A DNA stretch of 32,241 bases from Rhodothermales bacterium (GTDB lineage Bacteria > Bacteroidota > Rhodothermia > Rhodothermales > BA12): contig JACSSA010000104.1 in the NCBI GenBank assembly GCA_014879465.1, positions 1 through 32,241 of the forward strand, given 5' to 3'. Below, piece by piece: positions 25,443 through 32,241 of the stretch. The position numbers and the translations under genes are program-made. Every line of letters begins with the position of its first letter. Within the stretch, counting starts at the first letter, position 1. The notes beneath the pieces were generated by a model. That model was not told the DNA's origin. It did no database searches and was given only the letters and a program-made list of their open reading frames with translations.

Positions 25443-26741
25443 ATGACCCTTTCCGATCGCCTCGCTCTCGCGTCCGGAGGCGTTGCCCTCGCCACGGTCG
25501 GGCTTGCCGTGGCAGGCGTTCCGATGCCGCCGGGTCTGGGCCTGGCGCTCGTACTCGGCGGCTTCGCGGCGGCGGCGCTGCTCGTGCTGCCGCGTTACGC
25601 CGCGCAACCGTCGGCGGTGGCGCTCGACGGCACGATGCGCGCCTCGGCTACGGCCCGGGGCGGCGTGGCGTGGGCGATGGCGCTCGTGCTGACGGCCTAT
25701 TACGCCGCGACGTACTGGTTTCCGGGCCGGCTGGACGGCCTCGTGCGCCTCTTCGAACCGCTCAGCCACGCGCTGCGCGGGCGGGATTCCGACGTCTGGT
25801 TCGTCTACGGCACCTTCTACACCCTCGCCGTGGCGGCGATGGGCGTCCGCGCGCTCGTCAAGTACCGCGATCATCCGTACCACCGCGCCCGAACGCTCGC
25901 GGTGATGGCCGTGCAGACGCTGCTGGCGTGGGCACTCCCGGCGCTGCTCGTGCGCCTGCAACGGCCCGAGCTGTACTTCTCCTACACCTGGCCGCTCGAC
26001 TACGACTTCCTCTTTCCGTCGAACGTCCAGATGCTCCGCGACCACGGCACGCTTGGCCTCTTCGCGCTCGTGTGGGGCGTTCTGCTGCTGGCCGTCGTGA
26101 CGCCTATGCTGACGTATTTCTACGGCAAACGGTGGTACTGCGCGTGGGTGTGCGGCTGCGGCGGGCTGGCTGAGACGGCGGGCGATCCGTACCGCCACCT
26201 CGCCGACCCGAGCCTGCGGGCGTGGAAGATCGAGCGGTGGACGATCCACAGCGTCCTCGTGCTGATCGTGGCGACGACGGCGCTCGTATGGCTTCGGGCG
26301 ACCACCGGGTTTGGCGGCGCGGTCTCCGACGCGCTCGCCCGGTTCTACGGCTTCGGCATCGGCGCGGTGTTTTCGGGCGTCGTGGGCGTGGGCTTCTATC
26401 CGCTGCTCGGTGCGCGGGTGTGGTGCCGGTTCGGCTGCCCGATGGCGGCGATTTTGGGGATTCAGCAGCGGTTTTTCTCCCGGTTTCGCATCACCGTCAA
26501 CGGCGGCGCGTGCATCTCGTGCGGCAACTGCACGACGTACTGCGAGATGGGCATCGACGTGCGGCACTACGCCCAGCGCGGGCAAAACATCGTGCGGGCC
26601 TCCTGCGTCGGGTGCGGCGCGTGCGCGTCGGTGTGCCCTCGGGGCGTGCTGCGGCTGGAAAACGGCCCCGGTGCGCGGATGGGCGAACGCGTCGGGCCGG
26701 GCGCGTTTGTACCGGAAGATGCGTTGGACGTTTTGACGTGA
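25443..26741 (+). CDS. Membrane-bound 4Fe-4S polyferredoxin (NapH/NosR/CcoG-like)
   Basis: A 432-residue inner-membrane electron-transfer protein with about seven or eight hydrophobic helices. These include GVALATVGLAVAGV near the start, VAWAMALVLTAYYAATYWF, FALVWGVLLLAVVTPMLTYFYG and SVLVLIVATTALVWL. Two cytosolic-loop Cys motifs typical of the NapH group follow membrane segments: WYCAWVCGCGG and VWCRFGCPM. The C-terminal domain (about 350-410) has two ferredoxin clusters, CISCGNCTTYC and CVGCGACASVCP. Translated 10 bases after the FAD oxidoreductase gene, it likely receives electrons from it and delivers them to or across the membrane. No terminal reductase is adjacent, so the physiological acceptor is unknown. 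Confidence 0.87.
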   Translation: MTLSDRLALASGGVALATVGLAVAGVPMPPGLGLALVLGGFAAAALLVLPRYAAQPSAVALDGTMRASATARGGVAWAMALVLTAYYAATYWFPGRLDGLVRLFEPLSHALRGRDSDVWFVYGTFYTLAVAAMGVRALVKYRDHPYHRARTLAVMAVQTLLAWALPALLVRLQRPELYFSYTWPLDYDFLFPSNVQMLRDHGTLGLFALVWGVLLLAVVTPMLTYFYGKRWYCAWVCGCGGLAETAGDPYRHLADPSLRAWKIERWTIHSVLVLIVATTALVWLRATTGFGGAVSDALARFYGFGIGAVFSGVVGVGFYPLLGARVWCRFGCPMAAILGIQQRFFSRFRITVNGGACISCGNCTTYCEMGIDVRHYAQRGQNIVRASCVGCGACASVCPRGVLRLENGPGARMGERVGPGAFVPEDALDVLT

Positions 26742-26781
26742 CGGGGGCGATGGAATCGCGACGGTATCGCCCCGTCCGCCC

Positions 26782-26810
26782 GTAGAGACGCCCCAGTGGG
26801 GCGTCTCTAC
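26782..26810. repeat. Perfect 13-bp palindrome with 3-base loop
   Basis: GTAGAGACGCCCC-AGT-GGGGCGTCTCTAC lies between the polyferredoxin and fabI genes. It could act as a terminator, but no T tract follows. From memory, GTAGAGACG...CGTCTCTAC palindromes are scattered through cyanobacterial and Bacteroidota genomes, so it is probably a small dispersed palindrome. Confidence 0.8.
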
Positions 26811-26811
26811 C

Positions 26812-26848
26812 ACCGTCCATCCACCGCGTTCAAACCGTCCATCCACCG
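26812..26848 (+). repeat. Two direct copies of a 15-base sequence
   Basis: ACCGTCCATCCACCG occurs at 26812-26826 and again at 26834-26848, a 22-base period, just after the palindrome and upstream of fabI. It could be an operator pair or simple slippage; nothing else distinguishes these. Confidence 0.6.
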
Positions 26849-26930
26849 AAAACCAGATTTCGGCATCGGAAACCGGCAACCGCCAATGCCCGCCCTGTTC
26901 GTACCTTTACCGCCCTCATCACCCGACGAC

Positions 26931-27815
26931 ATGGCTGCTACGCCCCTTTCCGGACACGGCCTGCTGCAAGGCAAAACCGGCATCATCTTTGGCGCACTCA
27001 ACCCGCAAAGCCTCGCGTGGTATATCGCCGAGGCCGTCCACCGCGAAGGCGGGCGGTTCGTGCTCACCAACGCACCCGTGGCCCAGCGCCTCGGCGAAGT
27101 CGACGCCCTCTCGGAGAAAACCGGCGCGCCGCTCATCTGGGCCGACGCCACGTCCACCGACGACCTCGACCGGCTCTTCGCAGAGGCCACCGCCCACTTC
27201 GGCGGCGGCATCGACTTCATCGTCCACTCCATCGGGATGGGGATGAACGTGCGCAAAAACCGCCCGTACGAAGACCTCAACCCCGACTGGTTCCTCAAGA
27301 CGCTCGACATCTCGGCGGCCAGCCTCCACCGCACCATCACGCAGGGCCTCAAGGCCGGGGCGCTCAACGACGGCGGCTCCATCGTGACGCTCTCGTTCAT
27401 CGGGGCGCAGCGTACGTTCTCTAAGTACAGCGAAATGGGCGACGCCAAGGCGCTGCTCGAATCGATCGTCCGCTCCTACGGCTACCGCCTCGCCAAACGC
27501 GGCATCCGCATCAACTCCGTCTCCCAAAGCCCCACCCGCACCAGCGCCGGCAGCGGCATCCGCGGCTTCGACCTGCTCTACACCTTCGCCGAGACGATGG
27601 CCCCGCTGGGCAACGCCGACTCGGACTCGTGCGCCGACTACGTCGTCTCGCTCCTGTCGGACTACACGCGGATGGTGACGATGCAAAACCTCTTCCACGA
27701 CGGCGGCTTCTCCACGATGGGCGTGACGGACGAACTGCTCGAACTCCTCGGCGAGGGGCTGCTCAAAGGCCAGGACTCGTCGGCGCTGCAAGAGTTGTTT
27801 GGCGACAAGAAGTAA
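26931..27815 (+). CDS. fabI: Enoyl-[acyl-carrier-protein] reductase, Bacteroidota-type FabI
   Basis: A 294-residue SDR enzyme for the last reduction step of fatty-acid elongation. The NAD-binding start is GKTGIIFGALNPQSLAW, with IDFIVHSIGMGMNVR in the middle. The active-site Tyr and Lys are in KYSEMGDAKALLES (Y-x6-K spacing), and the C-terminal NLFHDGGFSTMG is typical. The segment AQRTF before the Tyr is the Bacteroidota version. Where E. coli FabI has its extra Tyr (Y146, in LSYLG) this protein has Phe (LSFIG). The start is set at the ATG at 26931; an in-frame ATG at 26886 would add 15 unconserved residues. A HAD phosphatase gene follows 24 bases later. Confidence 0.92.
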   Translation: MAATPLSGHGLLQGKTGIIFGALNPQSLAWYIAEAVHREGGRFVLTNAPVAQRLGEVDALSEKTGAPLIWADATSTDDLDRLFAEATAHFGGGIDFIVHSIGMGMNVRKNRPYEDLNPDWFLKTLDISAASLHRTITQGLKAGALNDGGSIVTLSFIGAQRTFSKYSEMGDAKALLESIVRSYGYRLAKRGIRINSVSQSPTRTSAGSGIRGFDLLYTFAETMAPLGNADSDSCADYVVSLLSDYTRMVTMQNLFHDGGFSTMGVTDELLELLGEGLLKGQDSSALQELFGDKK

Positions 27816-27839
27816 GACCGCTTCCGCATCTCGCCGCCT

Positions 27840-28559
27840 GTGCTTTTTCTCGCCGACGTTGACGGCTGTCTCGCCGAGCCGTACCGCCCGTACAACCTCG
27901 ATGTGCTCCGCCGCGTGGCTGAGGCCATCCGCGTGCCGGGGCATCCGCCGTTTGCGCTGCTCACCGGGCGCGCCTACGGCTACGCCGAAGCCTTCGCGCA
28001 GCTGCTCGGCCTGACCGCTCCCGCCTTTTTCGAGGCCGGCGCGGGCGCGTTCCTGCTTCCCGAAGCCCGCACCGTCTGGCATCCCGCCGTCACCGACGAC
28101 GCGCTCGCGGCCCTCGACGAGGTGCGGCGCTGGTTCTTCGCCGAGTTGCTGCCCGCCGTGCCCGGCCTCGTCTTCGACCACGGCAAGCGGGCGCAGGTGG
28201 GCGTGATCGGCCCAGACGTGCGGCAGGTGCAGGAGGCGTCGGCCCGCACCCGCCGGTTCGTGGACGATCTGGGCGCGCCGCTCACCGTCTTTGAAACCCA
28301 TGTGTCGGTGGACGTGCTCGTGCACGGCCTCACCAAAGGCGACGCGCTGGACTGGATCGCCGAACTCACCGGCACGCCCGTCGACCGGATGGCGTTCATC
28401 GGCGACAGCGAGGGCGACGTGGGGGCGCTGCGGTGCGTCGGCTTTCCGTACGCTCCGGCCAACGCCACGGCTGCCGTGCAGGCCGTCGCCGAGACGATGC
28501 CGCAGCCGTTGGCCGAAGGGGTGTTGGAGGCGTACGTCTGTTATGCGAAATTGCGGTAG
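27840..28559 (+). CDS. HAD-superfamily (Cof/IIB-like) phosphatase
   Basis: A 239-residue hydrolase. The nucleophile motif is FLADVDGCL (D6, D8), motif II is the Thr in ALLTGRA, the motif III Lys is in GLTKGDALDWI, and motif IV is FIGDSEGDVGAL. A cap of the IIB type lies between motifs II and III. Family members act on sugar phosphates, phosphoglycolate or mannosyl-3-phosphoglycerate. The start is a GTG at 27840 placed directly before LFLADVDG, 24 bases after fabI, so co-transcription is likely. The substrate cannot be assigned. Confidence 0.87.
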   Translation: MLFLADVDGCLAEPYRPYNLDVLRRVAEAIRVPGHPPFALLTGRAYGYAEAFAQLLGLTAPAFFEAGAGAFLLPEARTVWHPAVTDDALAALDEVRRWFFAELLPAVPGLVFDHGKRAQVGVIGPDVRQVQEASARTRRFVDDLGAPLTVFETHVSVDVLVHGLTKGDALDWIAELTGTPVDRMAFIGDSEGDVGALRCVGFPYAPANATAAVQAVAETMPQPLAEGVLEAYVCYAKLR

Positions 28560-28572
28560 AGGCGTGCGCACC

Positions 28573-28593
28573 AACGCTTGATTTTATAGCGTT
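28573..28593 (+). terminator. Small hairpin after the HAD phosphatase gene
   Basis: AACGCT-TGATTTTAT-AGCGTT forms a 6-bp stem with a 9-base loop, followed by TTAAGG. The T tract is short, so this is only a weak terminator candidate; the AT-rich loop could instead belong to the promoter of the next gene. Confidence 0.3.
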
Positions 28594-28632
28594 TAAGGAC
28601 GAACGCCGCCGCGCCGAAACCGTTAGTGCCCC

Positions 28633-29502
28633 GTGTCTTCCCGCCTGCCCCGCGCAATCCCACGGATGCCCCGTCTGCTCTTCTTCGCCGTGTGCGCTGC
28701 CGCACTCGCGCTTCCCGTCTTTAATGTTGCGCGCGCCCAATCGCCCGCGGACGCCCTGCACGGCCCGTCCGGGGCCTTTGCCGATACGTCGCTGGTGGCG
28801 CTCTTTGAGCCGCCGCACGACACGACCGATCGGCCGACGGTCGACGACCTGTACTACCTGCTGCGCGACGCCCGGCTTTTCGGTAGCGCCGACGATTCCC
28901 GTCCGATGGAGACGCTGCGCCGCCGCATGCCCATCTACCGTCTTGGGATGCGCGGCGGCTACACCCACGTCCGCCTCGACGACGGGCGCGAGGGGTACGT
29001 CGAAGGCTTCCCGATGGCCAACGTGTGGGTGCGCGTGTCCAAGCGCGAAAGCCGCCTCGACCTGTTCCGCGGGGCCGACCTCATTCGCTCCTACCGCGCC
29101 GACTTCGGCTACAATCCGCTCTCCGACAAAGAACAGCGCGGATCCACGAGCGACCCCGATCACTGGCGCACGCCCGAGGGCACGTTCACCATCGTCAAGC
29201 GCAACCCGAACTCGCAGTACTACCGCGCCTTCGTGCTGAGCTACCCCACCGCCGACCACGCCCGACGCGCCTTCGAGACCGGGCTGATCTCCCGGCGCGA
29301 GCGCGACGCCATCGAGCAGGCCGACCGCGACGGCACGATGCCGCCGATGAACACTGCGCTCGGCGGGATGATCGAGATCCACGGGCGCGGCTCCGGCCAA
29401 GGGCTGAACTGGACGCAGGGCTGCGTCGCCCTCCGCGACGAGCACATGGACGAGTTGTGGAACGTCCTCCCCGAAGGCGTCTCCGTCGTCATCGAGCAGT
29501 AA
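28633..29502 (+). CDS. L,D-transpeptidase (YkuD domain), secreted
   Basis: A 289-residue exported protein with a signal peptide (LLFFAVCAAALALPVFNVARAQ). An SH3-like or linker region follows (about 100-135, GYTHVRLDDGREGYVEGF), then a YkuD catalytic domain (about 132-289). The active site is H250 (MIEIHGRG) and C264 in NWTQGCVALRDEHMDELW, the standard TxGCVAL motif. The family forms 3-3 cross-links in peptidoglycan or attaches proteins to it. The frame opens at a GTG (28633); the ATG at 28666 (MPRLLFF) would give a cleaner signal peptide and may be the true start. The gene borders the cassette island on its right. Confidence 0.9.
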   Translation: MSSRLPRAIPRMPRLLFFAVCAAALALPVFNVARAQSPADALHGPSGAFADTSLVALFEPPHDTTDRPTVDDLYYLLRDARLFGSADDSRPMETLRRRMPIYRLGMRGGYTHVRLDDGREGYVEGFPMANVWVRVSKRESRLDLFRGADLIRSYRADFGYNPLSDKEQRGSTSDPDHWRTPEGTFTIVKRNPNSQYYRAFVLSYPTADHARRAFETGLISRRERDAIEQADRDGTMPPMNTALGGMIEIHGRGSGQGLNWTQGCVALRDEHMDELWNVLPEGVSVVIEQ

Positions 29503-29659
29503 ACGTCAGGCTGGGCTCAGGCGTTCGAGCGGGCTGGTCGTGGCCACCGCCGAGCGGGTGATGTGCAGGTACTGCTACGTTGTGGCCTAGCCGAGACGAC
29601 GGCAGGCGGTAGCGACCGCCTTGAGGAGGCGGGGCGAATCGTGGGACATCGGGCGTTCG

Positions 29660-29789
29660 GCATAACACGTTGGCGTTATAGAGACCGAATCAGGCCGAGC
29701 ATACCCTCCGGGACGAAAAAAAAACGTGCGGGACGCACGAAAGCCAGTTGCGCAGTCGGCATTTGCGCGTTATGTTACGCTGGTTATGC
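29660..29789 (+). other. Possible decayed attC site
   Basis: GCATAAC (29660-29666) and GTTATGC (29783-29789) are perfectly complementary and 130 bases apart end to end, the size of a long attC. The inner arms pair only poorly, so this could be a worn site or chance. Nested extra copies of the same boxes occur within it. Confidence 0.3.
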
Positions 29790-29803
29790 CGATTCTCTCG
29801 TCC

Positions 29804-29842
29804 GCATAACACCCGAGCGTTCCGCTCAATCATTGGTTATAC
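29804..29842 (+). other. Short attC-like site left of the cassette
   Basis: GCATAAC (R''-like), spacer ACCC, GAGCG-TTC-CGCTC stem (L-like), spacer, then GTTATAC (R'-like). The order and symmetry match an attC site, but 39 bases is shorter than usual. The R''-like box is an exact complement of GTTATGC at 29783-29789, as expected if 29784-29836 were a tiny cassette without a gene. Confidence 0.4.
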
Positions 29843-29930
29843 GGCCTCTCCACGCACAAGCCCTGTACGGTGTGACGCGGGGTTGGCGCCGTTCGCCAGT
29901 AGACTCTCGGCTCACTCACCTCGACAGCTC

Positions 29931-30167
29931 ATGGCGCAGTACAAGTACGACCAGTACCTTAGTCAGAACAACCACGCGGAGTACGACAAGCTGTACTCGC
30001 CCGGAGAGAACTGCCCGAACTCTGGTATCTACCGCTGTGAAGTCTGCGGAGACGAGATCGCCTCAAACAAGGGAAACCCCTTCCCGCCCCAGAACCACCA
30101 TCAGCACGCTCAGGGGAAGGGTCCAATCCGCTGGAAGCTGATCGTCTTCTCACAGCAAAAGAAGTAG
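29931..30167 (+). CDS. Small zinc-ribbon-like cassette protein
   Basis: A 78-residue hydrophilic protein with a probable zinc site: YRCEVCGDEIA supplies a CxxC, and NHHQH plus a Cys in GENCPNSG may complete it. The run SGIYRCEVCGDEI and the following KGNPFPPQNHH resemble a short bacterial family I know only as small proteins of unknown function, sometimes labelled protein L. A lysine-rich end (SQQKK) follows WKLIVF. It is the first gene of the cassette and visibly lower in GC than neighbouring chromosomal genes. The ORF track starts at 29748, but that extension reads through attC-like DNA, so the ATG at 29931 is used. Function unknown. Confidence 0.75.
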   Translation: MAQYKYDQYLSQNNHAEYDKLYSPGENCPNSGIYRCEVCGDEIASNKGNPFPPQNHHQHAQGKGPIRWKLIVFSQQKK

Positions 30168-30241
30168 AGCTTGCCGAACTATACTCCGTCGTTCGTCGTT
30201 CTAAAGCCTGCACAACTCCACCTCATCAACCGCGGAACACT

Positions 30242-30469
30242 ATGGAGCGCTATCGAAACCTGGGAGGCGACTCGGGCATCACGGCCTACGAGATCGGCAC
30301 CGACTCGATCACGGTCGAGTTCAAAGGCGGGGCGACCTACCTCTACACCAACCAGAGCGCCGGCAGCGGCAACATTGAGCAGATGAAGCAACTTGCTCAG
30401 GCGGGCAGCGGCCTGAATAGCTTCATCAGTCGCGTGGTCAAGAAGGGCTACGCCAGGAAGCTGCGGTAG
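30242..30469 (+). CDS. KTSC-domain protein (cassette-borne)
   Basis: A 75-residue protein that is essentially one KTSC domain. It starts MERYRNLGGDSGITAYEIG, continues with SITVEFKGGATYLYTNQSAG and ends IEQMKQLAQAGSGLNSFISR and YARKLR. This domain was named after its presence at the C-terminus of some lysyl-tRNA synthetases, and stand-alone copies like this are, to my recollection, frequent in integron cassettes. It may bind nucleic acid, but that is inference. The ATG follows 74 bases after the zinc-ribbon gene with no attC between them, so both share one cassette. The function is not known. Confidence 0.88.
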   Translation: MERYRNLGGDSGITAYEIGTDSITVEFKGGATYLYTNQSAGSGNIEQMKQLAQAGSGLNSFISRVVKKGYARKLR

Positions 30470-30488
30470 CAGGCCTCGCGGCGGGGCC

Positions 30489-30616
30489 GTATAACCCGCC
30501 GCTGCAGGCCGACCGGGGGCGCAAGCGTTCTTGGCTCGTCCGAGCGCGGCGTCTACTTTCGCTTGTCCACCCGCTGCGCCGCCAGCCCCCGGCGGCTAAG
30601 CGCCAAATTGTTAGGC
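30489..30616 (+). other. attC-like recombination site (about 128 bp)
   Basis: R'' is GTATAAC (30489-30495) and R' is GTTAGGC (30610-30616, fits GTTRRRY). Between them an imperfect palindrome pairs CGCT (30500-30503) with AGCG (30599-30602). It also pairs GGCC-G-A-CCGGGGGC (30508-30520) with GCCCCCGGCGGC (30585-30596, 3' arm), leaving one unpaired A at 30512. The centre (30521-30584) is a variable terminal structure. Unpaired bases and this box order are typical of attC. Confidence 0.75.
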
Positions 30617-30631
30617 GGTACATCGCTCTTC

Positions 30632-30656
30632 CAGCCTCGCTTTTCTGCGTAGGCTG
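30632..30656 (+). terminator. Hairpin downstream of the cassette
   Basis: CAGCCTCGC-TTTTCT-GCGTAGGCTG pairs as a 9-bp stem with one bulged A. It lies just beyond the attC-like site and before the next chromosomal gene. No T tract follows, so it may not terminate transcription. Confidence 0.3.
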
Positions 30657-30790
30657 AGTGAGTCGCTAAAGGCGGCGGCGGGTTTGGCGAAAAAACGTTG
30701 AGGGGTGGGCGGTTGCGCCCGGAAGGGGCGGACGTGGGGGCACGATTGGGCGCGGCGCGGCGTTGGTGCGGGCGGATCACTTGGTTTCGT

Positions 30791-31423
30791 ATGCGCCTTC
30801 GGTTGTTGGCGGCCTTGGCCGCACTTGCTGCCGCTCCGGTCTCGGCCCAGTCGCTGGACGCGGCGCTGGCGGCCCGTGTCCACGCGCTTTACGCCCAGCG
30901 CGACGCGTCGGCGCTGCGCACGGCCTGTGCTTCTGCGGCGGGCGACAACGCGCTGCTGTGTCGCTACCGGCTCTACCCGCTCACGCAGGACGCTTCGCTG
31001 CTGCGGAACGCGCCCGCGCCGTCGTCGGCCGCCGGGCACGCGCTCGCTGCCGGGCTGCTCGGCTACGAGGCCGCCCGCGCCCCGATGACGCGGATGATCG
31101 CGCTCGGACGCCGCATCCAGCGCAGCCTCGACGCGGCCCGCCGCCTCGACCCCAGCGAGCCGCTGCTGCTCTTGGTGGACGGGCAGGGGCTGGTGTTTCG
31201 CCCGGCCGTGGTGGGCGGCGACAAGCGGGCCGCGCTGCGGCTGTTCCGCCAGCTTCGCCAGCGGCCCGGCCCGGCCAGCAGCGCCGCCGAAGCGGACGTG
31301 TGGACGTGGTTCACCCTCTACCGGATGAACGGCGCGGACGCCGAGCCGATGCGCCAGCGCCTCCGCGCCGCCAGCCTGCCGCCGCTGTTCCGCGCCTTCG
31401 TCGACCAGCCGCCGGGCGGGTAA
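30791..31423 (+). CDS. Secreted helical (TPR-like) protein of unknown function
   Basis: A 210-residue protein with a clear signal peptide (MRLRLLAALAALAAAPVSAQS). The mature part is alpha-helical and rich in Ala, Arg and Leu. The region DPSEPLLLLVDGQGLVFRPAVVGGDKRAALRLFRQL (about 117-152) resembles secreted Bacteroidota TPR proteins in which a residue count per lineage is followed by x-F-G-G-G-x-E-K-A-L-x-L-F. A WTWFTLYRMNG segment follows. The ORF track extends to 30698 but the ATG at 30791 begins the signal peptide. No partner genes are evident; function unknown. Confidence 0.72.
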   Translation: MRLRLLAALAALAAAPVSAQSLDAALAARVHALYAQRDASALRTACASAAGDNALLCRYRLYPLTQDASLLRNAPAPSSAAGHALAAGLLGYEAARAPMTRMIALGRRIQRSLDAARRLDPSEPLLLLVDGQGLVFRPAVVGGDKRAALRLFRQLRQRPGPASSAAEADVWTWFTLYRMNGADAEPMRQRLRAASLPPLFRAFVDQPPGG

Positions 31424-31866
31424 GCAAGACCGGCGACCGGCTGGGGAATGGACGTTGGTTCCACCAACCCCCACCCGTTTGCGCCCCCACACCGCCTTTC
31501 GCTTCGCCCTCGGCGTGCTCCATGCGGGCATGTGGGCGACGCTCGTCGCCAACCGGATTGTGCTGAAACGCACGCCTTCTGGGCACGAAGCGGGAGATTC
31601 AAGCTACCGGGACGACTTGTCATCTGGAGCGTTGCGCTCGTGACCTATCCCAAGGTGGGGTGGAGGAGGTCTGTCTACGCCGTCTTGGGACTCATCCGAA
31701 AAGGGTGTGTCATGGCGAGCGAAGCGAAGCCCTCTCGTCGCAGAGACGCCCAAACGACGAAGGTGCCGCGTCGCTTCGCTCCTCGCAACGACCCCCGTAG
31801 GACGTTTCGGATAGGTCCTTGCTCCGGGACCGTAGAATCGCGCCCTCTACCCGAGACTCGAAACCT
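31424..31866. other. 443-base gene-free spacer carrying repeats
   Basis: No convincing gene is present. A stretch near 31610-31660 (TGTCATCTGGAGCG..GTGACCTATC) looks like a worn repeat of the GTCATCCTGAGCG kind that I recall from many genomes. The segment 31688-31818 holds the repeat element described separately. A 62-codon frame at 31455-31643 is considered and rejected. Confidence 0.6.
31688..31818 (+). mobile_element. MITE-like repeat element, copy 4, with outer inverted repeats
   Basis: The inner repeat (31709-31792) starts GTCATGGCGAGCGAAGCGAA and ends CGCTTCGCTCCTCGCAACGA. It is the best-preserved copy of the family seen at 6037-6120 and 10661-10735. It is enclosed by GGACTCATCCGAAA (31688-31701) and TTTCGGATAGGTCC (31805-31818), which are inverted copies with two mismatches over 14 bases. 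No ORF is inside. The outer repeats were not found around the other copies. Confidence 0.6.
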
Positions 31867-32241
31867 TCACCTTTGCTCTACATCCGGCACGAGCGTGTCG
31901 AGCACGCGGGCGGTCGAGAGCACGCCGGGCAGCCCCGCGCCGGGGTGCGTGCCCGCACCGACGAGGTAGAGGCCGTCCACGTCCTCGCTCGCGTTGTGCG
32001 GTCGGAAGTAGGCGCTCTGCGTCAGCGTCGGCTCGATGGAGAAGGCCGCGCCCTTGAACGACAGGTAGTCGTCCAAAAAGCCCTGCGGCGTGAGCGTCAC
32101 GCTGGCGTCGAGCGCGTCCGAAAGCCCCGGCAGCATCGTCTCCTCCAAGTACCGCTCGATCTTTTGGCGGTAGCGCTCGGTCTGCTCCGCGTCCCACACC
32201 TGCCCGCCTCCAAGGTGCGGCACAGGCGAGAGCACATAGAA
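31867..32241 (-). CDS. crtI: Phytoene desaturase (CrtI-type), C-terminal part
   Basis: Partial gene running off the right edge; 124 codons are visible plus the stop, with the N-terminal majority missing. The window reads in at FYVLSPVPHLGGG, a typical CrtI segment. It continues with SFKGAAFSIEPTLTQSAYFRPHN and ends with the FAD-binding C-terminal signature GLYLVGAGTHPGAGLPGVL. This family desaturates phytoene to lycopene-type carotenoids at the membrane. The ORF track treats the internal GTG at 32235 as a start, but the frame stays open to the edge. Phytoene desaturase is favoured over related carotenoid ketolase or isomerase members, which share the signature. Other carotenoid genes would be expected further right. 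Confidence 0.9.
   Translation of the reverse strand, partial: FYVLSPVPHLGGGQVWDAEQTERYRQKIERYLEETMLPGLSDALDASVTLTPQGFLDDYLSFKGAAFSIEPTLTQSAYFRPHNASEDVDGLYLVGAGTHPGAGLPGVLSTARVLDTLVPDVEQR

Follow-up and report, generated by a model that had tools for sequence, protein, structure and literature searches.

A probable decayed chromosomal integron in a Rhodothermales genome that holds five copies of an attI-like element

In integrons, the integrase IntI joins the folded bottom strand of an attC site to the attI site. A gene cassette that ends in an attC site, with no functional integrase gene beside it, is found in the stretch of 32,241 nucleotides analysed here (the window). We consider this locus, with a probability of roughly nine in ten, to be a decayed chromosomal integron that consists of an intI stub, an attI site with a candidate promoter, one cassette and a full attC site.

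The cassette boundary and the remnant of intI

Reading of the sequence places GTTATAC at 29836-29842, the R'' box GTATAAC at 30489-30495 and the R' box GTTAGGC at 30610-30616. These letters and positions agree with the initial annotation, as does its remark that the left box is the exact complement of R'', an arrangement that makes the cassette a circularisable unit. The core site GTTATAC (plus strand) is also the point at which the similarity between attI copies stops. With this box and the R' box of attC as bounds, the cassette runs on the plus strand from T29837 to G30610 (29837-30610; 774 bases), and the crossover would lie between G29836 and T29837. The rule that R'' is the complement of the cassette start extends beyond the window: it holds for the first cassettes of contigs C77 and C118 of the same genome (GTTATGT/ACATAAC) and for a cassette on contig C90, and in arrays of relatives it holds at six or more of the seven positions in 22 of 24 cassettes.

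The sequence to the left of this boundary is not another cassette, and it holds features absent from the initial annotation, as are the sister loci on other contigs described below. An attI-like element (29659-29836, plus strand), the putative landing site, lies between the first cassette and the start codon of a truncated intI gene, so that we take the locus for a decayed integron and not for a lone cassette. This remnant (29587-29649, minus strand) comprises the start codon, 20 codons in all (MSHDSPRLLKAVATACRRLG) and then a stop, all sequence downstream of the N-terminus being gone. It aligns with the IntI N-termini of 15 relatives (for example, SPRLLKAVATACRRLG versus APKLLDQVRTACRRRG), none of 500 shuffles aligning as well; within 26001-32241, an IntI alignment of this quality is reached by four of 12,364 frames, overlapping frames counted. 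The remnant is short, and we count this against the decayed-integron reading.

The stub DNA and its start codon are common to the window and to an intI pseudogene on C77 (L026, 2909-3188, minus strand), and the roughly 180 bases upstream of 29836 recur on that contig at 76% identity. The pseudogene retains the N-terminal domain only, is frameshifted, carries one stop and extends into the beginning of a gene for a UvrD/PcrA-like helicase. Its match to IntI (60 bits) covers profile positions 14-86, so that the catalytic part is missing, and it is the sole IntI trace in the genome besides the window stub. A search of the other contigs, which the initial annotation had advised, thus turned up a truncated trace and nothing over the cut-off: the best matches in the genome score 60 and 24 bits against the 265 required, although the assembly is a draft of 219 contigs (99.28% complete), in a gap of which an intact intI could be hidden. 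The earlier statement that an integrase is lacking here consequently stands, since the window holds a stub of 20 codons and the rest of the assembly no functional IntI.

Because the element lies beside the start codon of intI, and because its counterpart on C77 lies beside an IntI fragment, it occupies the position of attI, and we read the locus as an integron whose integrase has been deleted. Both its position and its recurrence fit an attI site next to intI; its sequence matches no attI of any relative, and it is by position and architecture that we take it to be a putative functional attI. Two internal features bear on this. The promoter-like sequence TTGCGC-17-TATGTT (29748-29776, plus strand) is not reported by a generic promoter scan, yet four of the five copies in this genome have it, some perhaps in slightly altered form, with the hexamer spacing kept; it is a candidate for the cassette promoter Pc. 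The inverted repeat GTTATGC...GCATAAC (29783-29810), likewise conserved in the copies, is possibly an IntI binding site. R''/R'-like boxes (GGCATAAC/GTTATGCC) in the element's 5' half prompted us to consider another attC site there, which we rejected, as our attC covariance model (R1, below) gave no match and the L-box pairing was unconvincing by eye.

In the sequence of events that we favour, IntI would have inserted the cassette through recombination of the folded attC bottom strand with attI between G29836 and T29837, and intI would have been lost afterwards, leaving 20 codons. This loss would have fixed the cassette in place, while transcription from the attI promoter may persist.

Copies of the attI-like element in this and related genomes

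The element occurs five times in the genome, on the window contig (C25), C77, C118, C141 and, in decayed form, C85 (L038, 4847-5010), where the core site is destroyed. Different sequences follow each copy. Since the element heads three cassette loci besides that of the window and is also present as one decayed copy, the platform would have had several landing sites. The sister loci carry attC sites of their own on C77 (L026:4091-4208) and C118 (L036:1547-1670), and a broken one lies on C120. The C120 site (L076, 858-979) keeps its R''/L'' half, has lost its right end and is followed by a frame that appears GNAT-like by eye.

The ends of C77 and C141 consist of the same 69 identical bases, beginning exactly at GTTAGCC. 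This is also the start of the C90 cassette, at the end of that contig, and the R'' box of that cassette is GGCTAAC. A single cassette start that stands at two different places in arrays, severed where the crossover is predicted, is the hallmark of cassette movement.

One integrase, now dead, may have acted in trans on all five sites as its landing pads, or the sites may descend from five integrons that each lost intI. We hold the first of these possibilities to be an even bet; it refines the decayed-integron reading and is compatible with it. The copies on C118, C141 and C85 speak for it, as they show no trace of intI and their similarity begins at one common left motif, against which other chromosomal DNA abuts. 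On the other hand, the intI remnants at the window and on C77 indicate that at least two of the five sites once had an intI gene, and some route for copying attI is required.

Comparable copies are found in relatives. In genome G011, the attI that adjoins an intact-scoring intI (L096) has exactly four further copies (L090, L091, L093 and L097), which are 92-97% identical to it over 121-135 bases. All four copies stand at the heads of dispersed arrays in the right orientation, the identity ends at GTTA, and no IntI match is found at any of them, so that intI is present at one of five places. A second attI of this genome has a 74.5% identical relative that heads another array. In genome G006 (L045, L140), the attI beside intI has a copy, 90% identical along 165 bases, at the head of an array on another contig, which carries no IntI. 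These cases favour dispersed sites served by one integrase, whereas no orphan copies were seen in the arrays examined from several other intI-bearing genomes (G031, G046, G009, G010 and G032), and in G021 the sole match spanned 61 bases at 75%. Three genomes of different families, that of the window among them, thus show attI duplicated without intI.

Three further candidates were set aside. The leader repeat of G007 is a long identical repeat and that of G053 a repeated cassette; in G039, the shared sequence lies past the crossover and represents one cassette at three places. In this last genome, the same first cassette (TTATTCG...) is joined at GTTA at all three loci (L138, L105 and L099), and the upstream DNA differs between L138 and L099, that of L105 being masked with N.

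It is conceivable, at somewhat less than even odds, that attI was copied without intI in several Rhodothermales lineages, that one integrase serves dispersed attI-promoter platforms in trans, and that the window is such a platform whose integrase is dead. The arrangement of these loci may reflect use of the orphan attI sites in trans, in the past or at present. A literature search on orphan, multiple or duplicated attI found nothing relevant in the papers that it covered, which is no proof of novelty.

The multi-copy nature of the element also bears on the idea that the cassette went into a secondary, attG-type site of the chromosome with no attI involved. A single cassette and the lack of an integrase would be expected of such an event, but the sequence to the left is a conserved element, present in several copies and placed at the start codon of intI, rather than unique chromosomal DNA, and we regard this explanation as very improbable.

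The cassette genes and the attC site

Within the decayed integron, the cassette carries two compact open reading frames. ORF 1 (29931-30167, plus strand; 78 amino acids) is CxxC zinc-ribbon-like and weakly resembles Pfam YjzC (PF14168; E 6.5e-4, under the family cut-off). ORF 2 (30242-30469, plus strand; 75 amino acids) has no family match in Pfam, NCBIfam or PADLOC. Both are oriented toward attC and both lie in DNA of low GC content, two properties that had been noted before: no 450-base stretch of the contig has a lower GC content than the one beginning at 29761, with 56% against a mean of 68.5%.

ORF 2 was found in only three of the 196 genomes searched, the source genome counted, yet it is 89% identical to a protein of another family. 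Its homologue in Roseithermus sacchariphilus is encoded by the first cassette beside intI, which has the boundary GTTATAC, the R'' box GTATAAC and an attC site scoring 87 bits; the adjoining intI is split between two frames. Relatives of ORF 2 outside Rhodothermota are mostly without attC, and the protein is absent from the viral contigs scanned. In Acidithiobacillus ferrivorans (L081, 1920-2210), a 61% identical relative lies between GTTAGGC and GGCCTAAC in a cassette-like setting.

This distribution is hard to reconcile with a stable, vertically inherited operon that has no link to mobility. The lack of a functional integrase at present would suit an operon of this kind, but so sparse an occurrence combined with such identity across families would not. 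Furthermore, the fabI, HAD and LDT genes frequently remain linked in the LDT neighbourhoods of relatives, and no attC site was found in these neighbourhoods in 11 relatives. We judge vertical inheritance to be very improbable.

The attC site (30489-30616, minus strand), whose bottom strand recombines, is unremarkable in the folding free energy of its single sequence (z 0.15), and an Rfam scan gave no match. As the free-energy test carried no signal, the site was tested through homology and covariation. For this purpose, we built a covariance model (R1) from 14 aligned attC sites of other genomes, with the window sequence excluded. Of all places in the 2.97 Mb genome, it scores highest at precisely 30489-30616 (minus strand; 108.1 bits, E 8.9e-25), and the remaining matches inside the window reach only E values of 0.2 or above, leaving one attC site there. 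The covariance-model check proposed by the initial annotation thus recovers the very site that it had pointed out. In addition, the last part of the cassette matches, at up to 86% DNA identity by BLAST against integron loci of the same order, the repeated attC sites of an array in G032 that adjoins an intact-scoring intI.

RNAalifold, applied to 15 sites, predicts 23 pairs, 13 of which show compensatory changes, and confines the extrahelical bases to the R'' arm of the bottom strand. Covariation scores 0.305, compared with 0.141 ± 0.014 after shuffling, double-sided changes affect 16 of 30 pairs, and none of 500 shuffles equalled either value; paired cells amount to 89.9% against 81.0 ± 1.0% in the shuffle control. 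Slid versions of the structure score 0.036-0.062 in covariation, a comparison that favours the true register, as the structure itself was taken from the alignment of these sites. The proposed fold of the bottom strand was accordingly upheld by covariation, with unpaired bases on one arm, and not by folding energy. Homology and covariation confirm the window attC as genuine, far above chance. A chance hairpin with a chance 7-base match in GC-rich DNA, which the ordinary folding energy might have suggested, is refuted by the E value of the independent model, the compensatory changes and the exact adherence of the sister arrays to the boundary rule.

Comparison with known integron arrangements

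The initial annotation remarked that integrons are best known from Proteobacteria. Of 60 genomes of the same order, 24 carry an IntI that scores above the NCBIfam cut-off, R1 finds attC sites in 21 of the 60 (at most 43 per genome), and an integron of Salinibacter ruber M1, a member of Rhodothermales, has been published (PMC9024848); an integron in this lineage is accordingly unsurprising.

A first comparison is with complete sedentary chromosomal integrons, for instance the one of Salinibacter ruber M1 (PMC9024848) and those found in relatives as loci of intI, attI and an array. The window shares with these the place of its putative attI beside the start of intI, the R''/R' boundary rule for cassettes, a folded attC and membership of the order Rhodothermales. 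Unlike these, it has an intI of 20 codons, one cassette and an attI-like element that is present at five places, and it lacks a functional intI beside attI. Taken by itself, the locus is an ordinary decayed integron.

A second comparison is with CALINs, which IntegronFinder 2 calls by default from two attC sites without IntI nearby (PMC9024848). The window has an attC site without a functional integrase, as a CALIN does, but it has one attC site, and besides this it retains both an intI stub and an attI-like site; the earlier description as a small attC cluster that lacks an integrase is not strictly apt. Clusters of this type are usually taken as degraded integrons, descriptions of attI beyond class 1 integrons are poor, and the standard tool skips attI by default (PMC9024848), so that an attI copy remote from intI would escape notice. 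If service in trans is real, some integrase-less arrays would be working satellites instead of decayed integrons, and orphan attI platforms served in this manner would add a new variation to the known integron layouts. Genomes such as G011, in which one intI adjoins its attI while four near-identical orphan copies head further arrays, allow a direct test of cassette capture and expression at several chromosomal platforms by a single integrase.

Finally, the DeltaattI-type cassettes of mobile integrons (PMC12901181) also feature attI-derived sequence away from intI, as is seen here. In those cassettes, attI serves as the cassette's own recombination site, whereas the attI-like copies described here head arrays at separate places in the chromosome.
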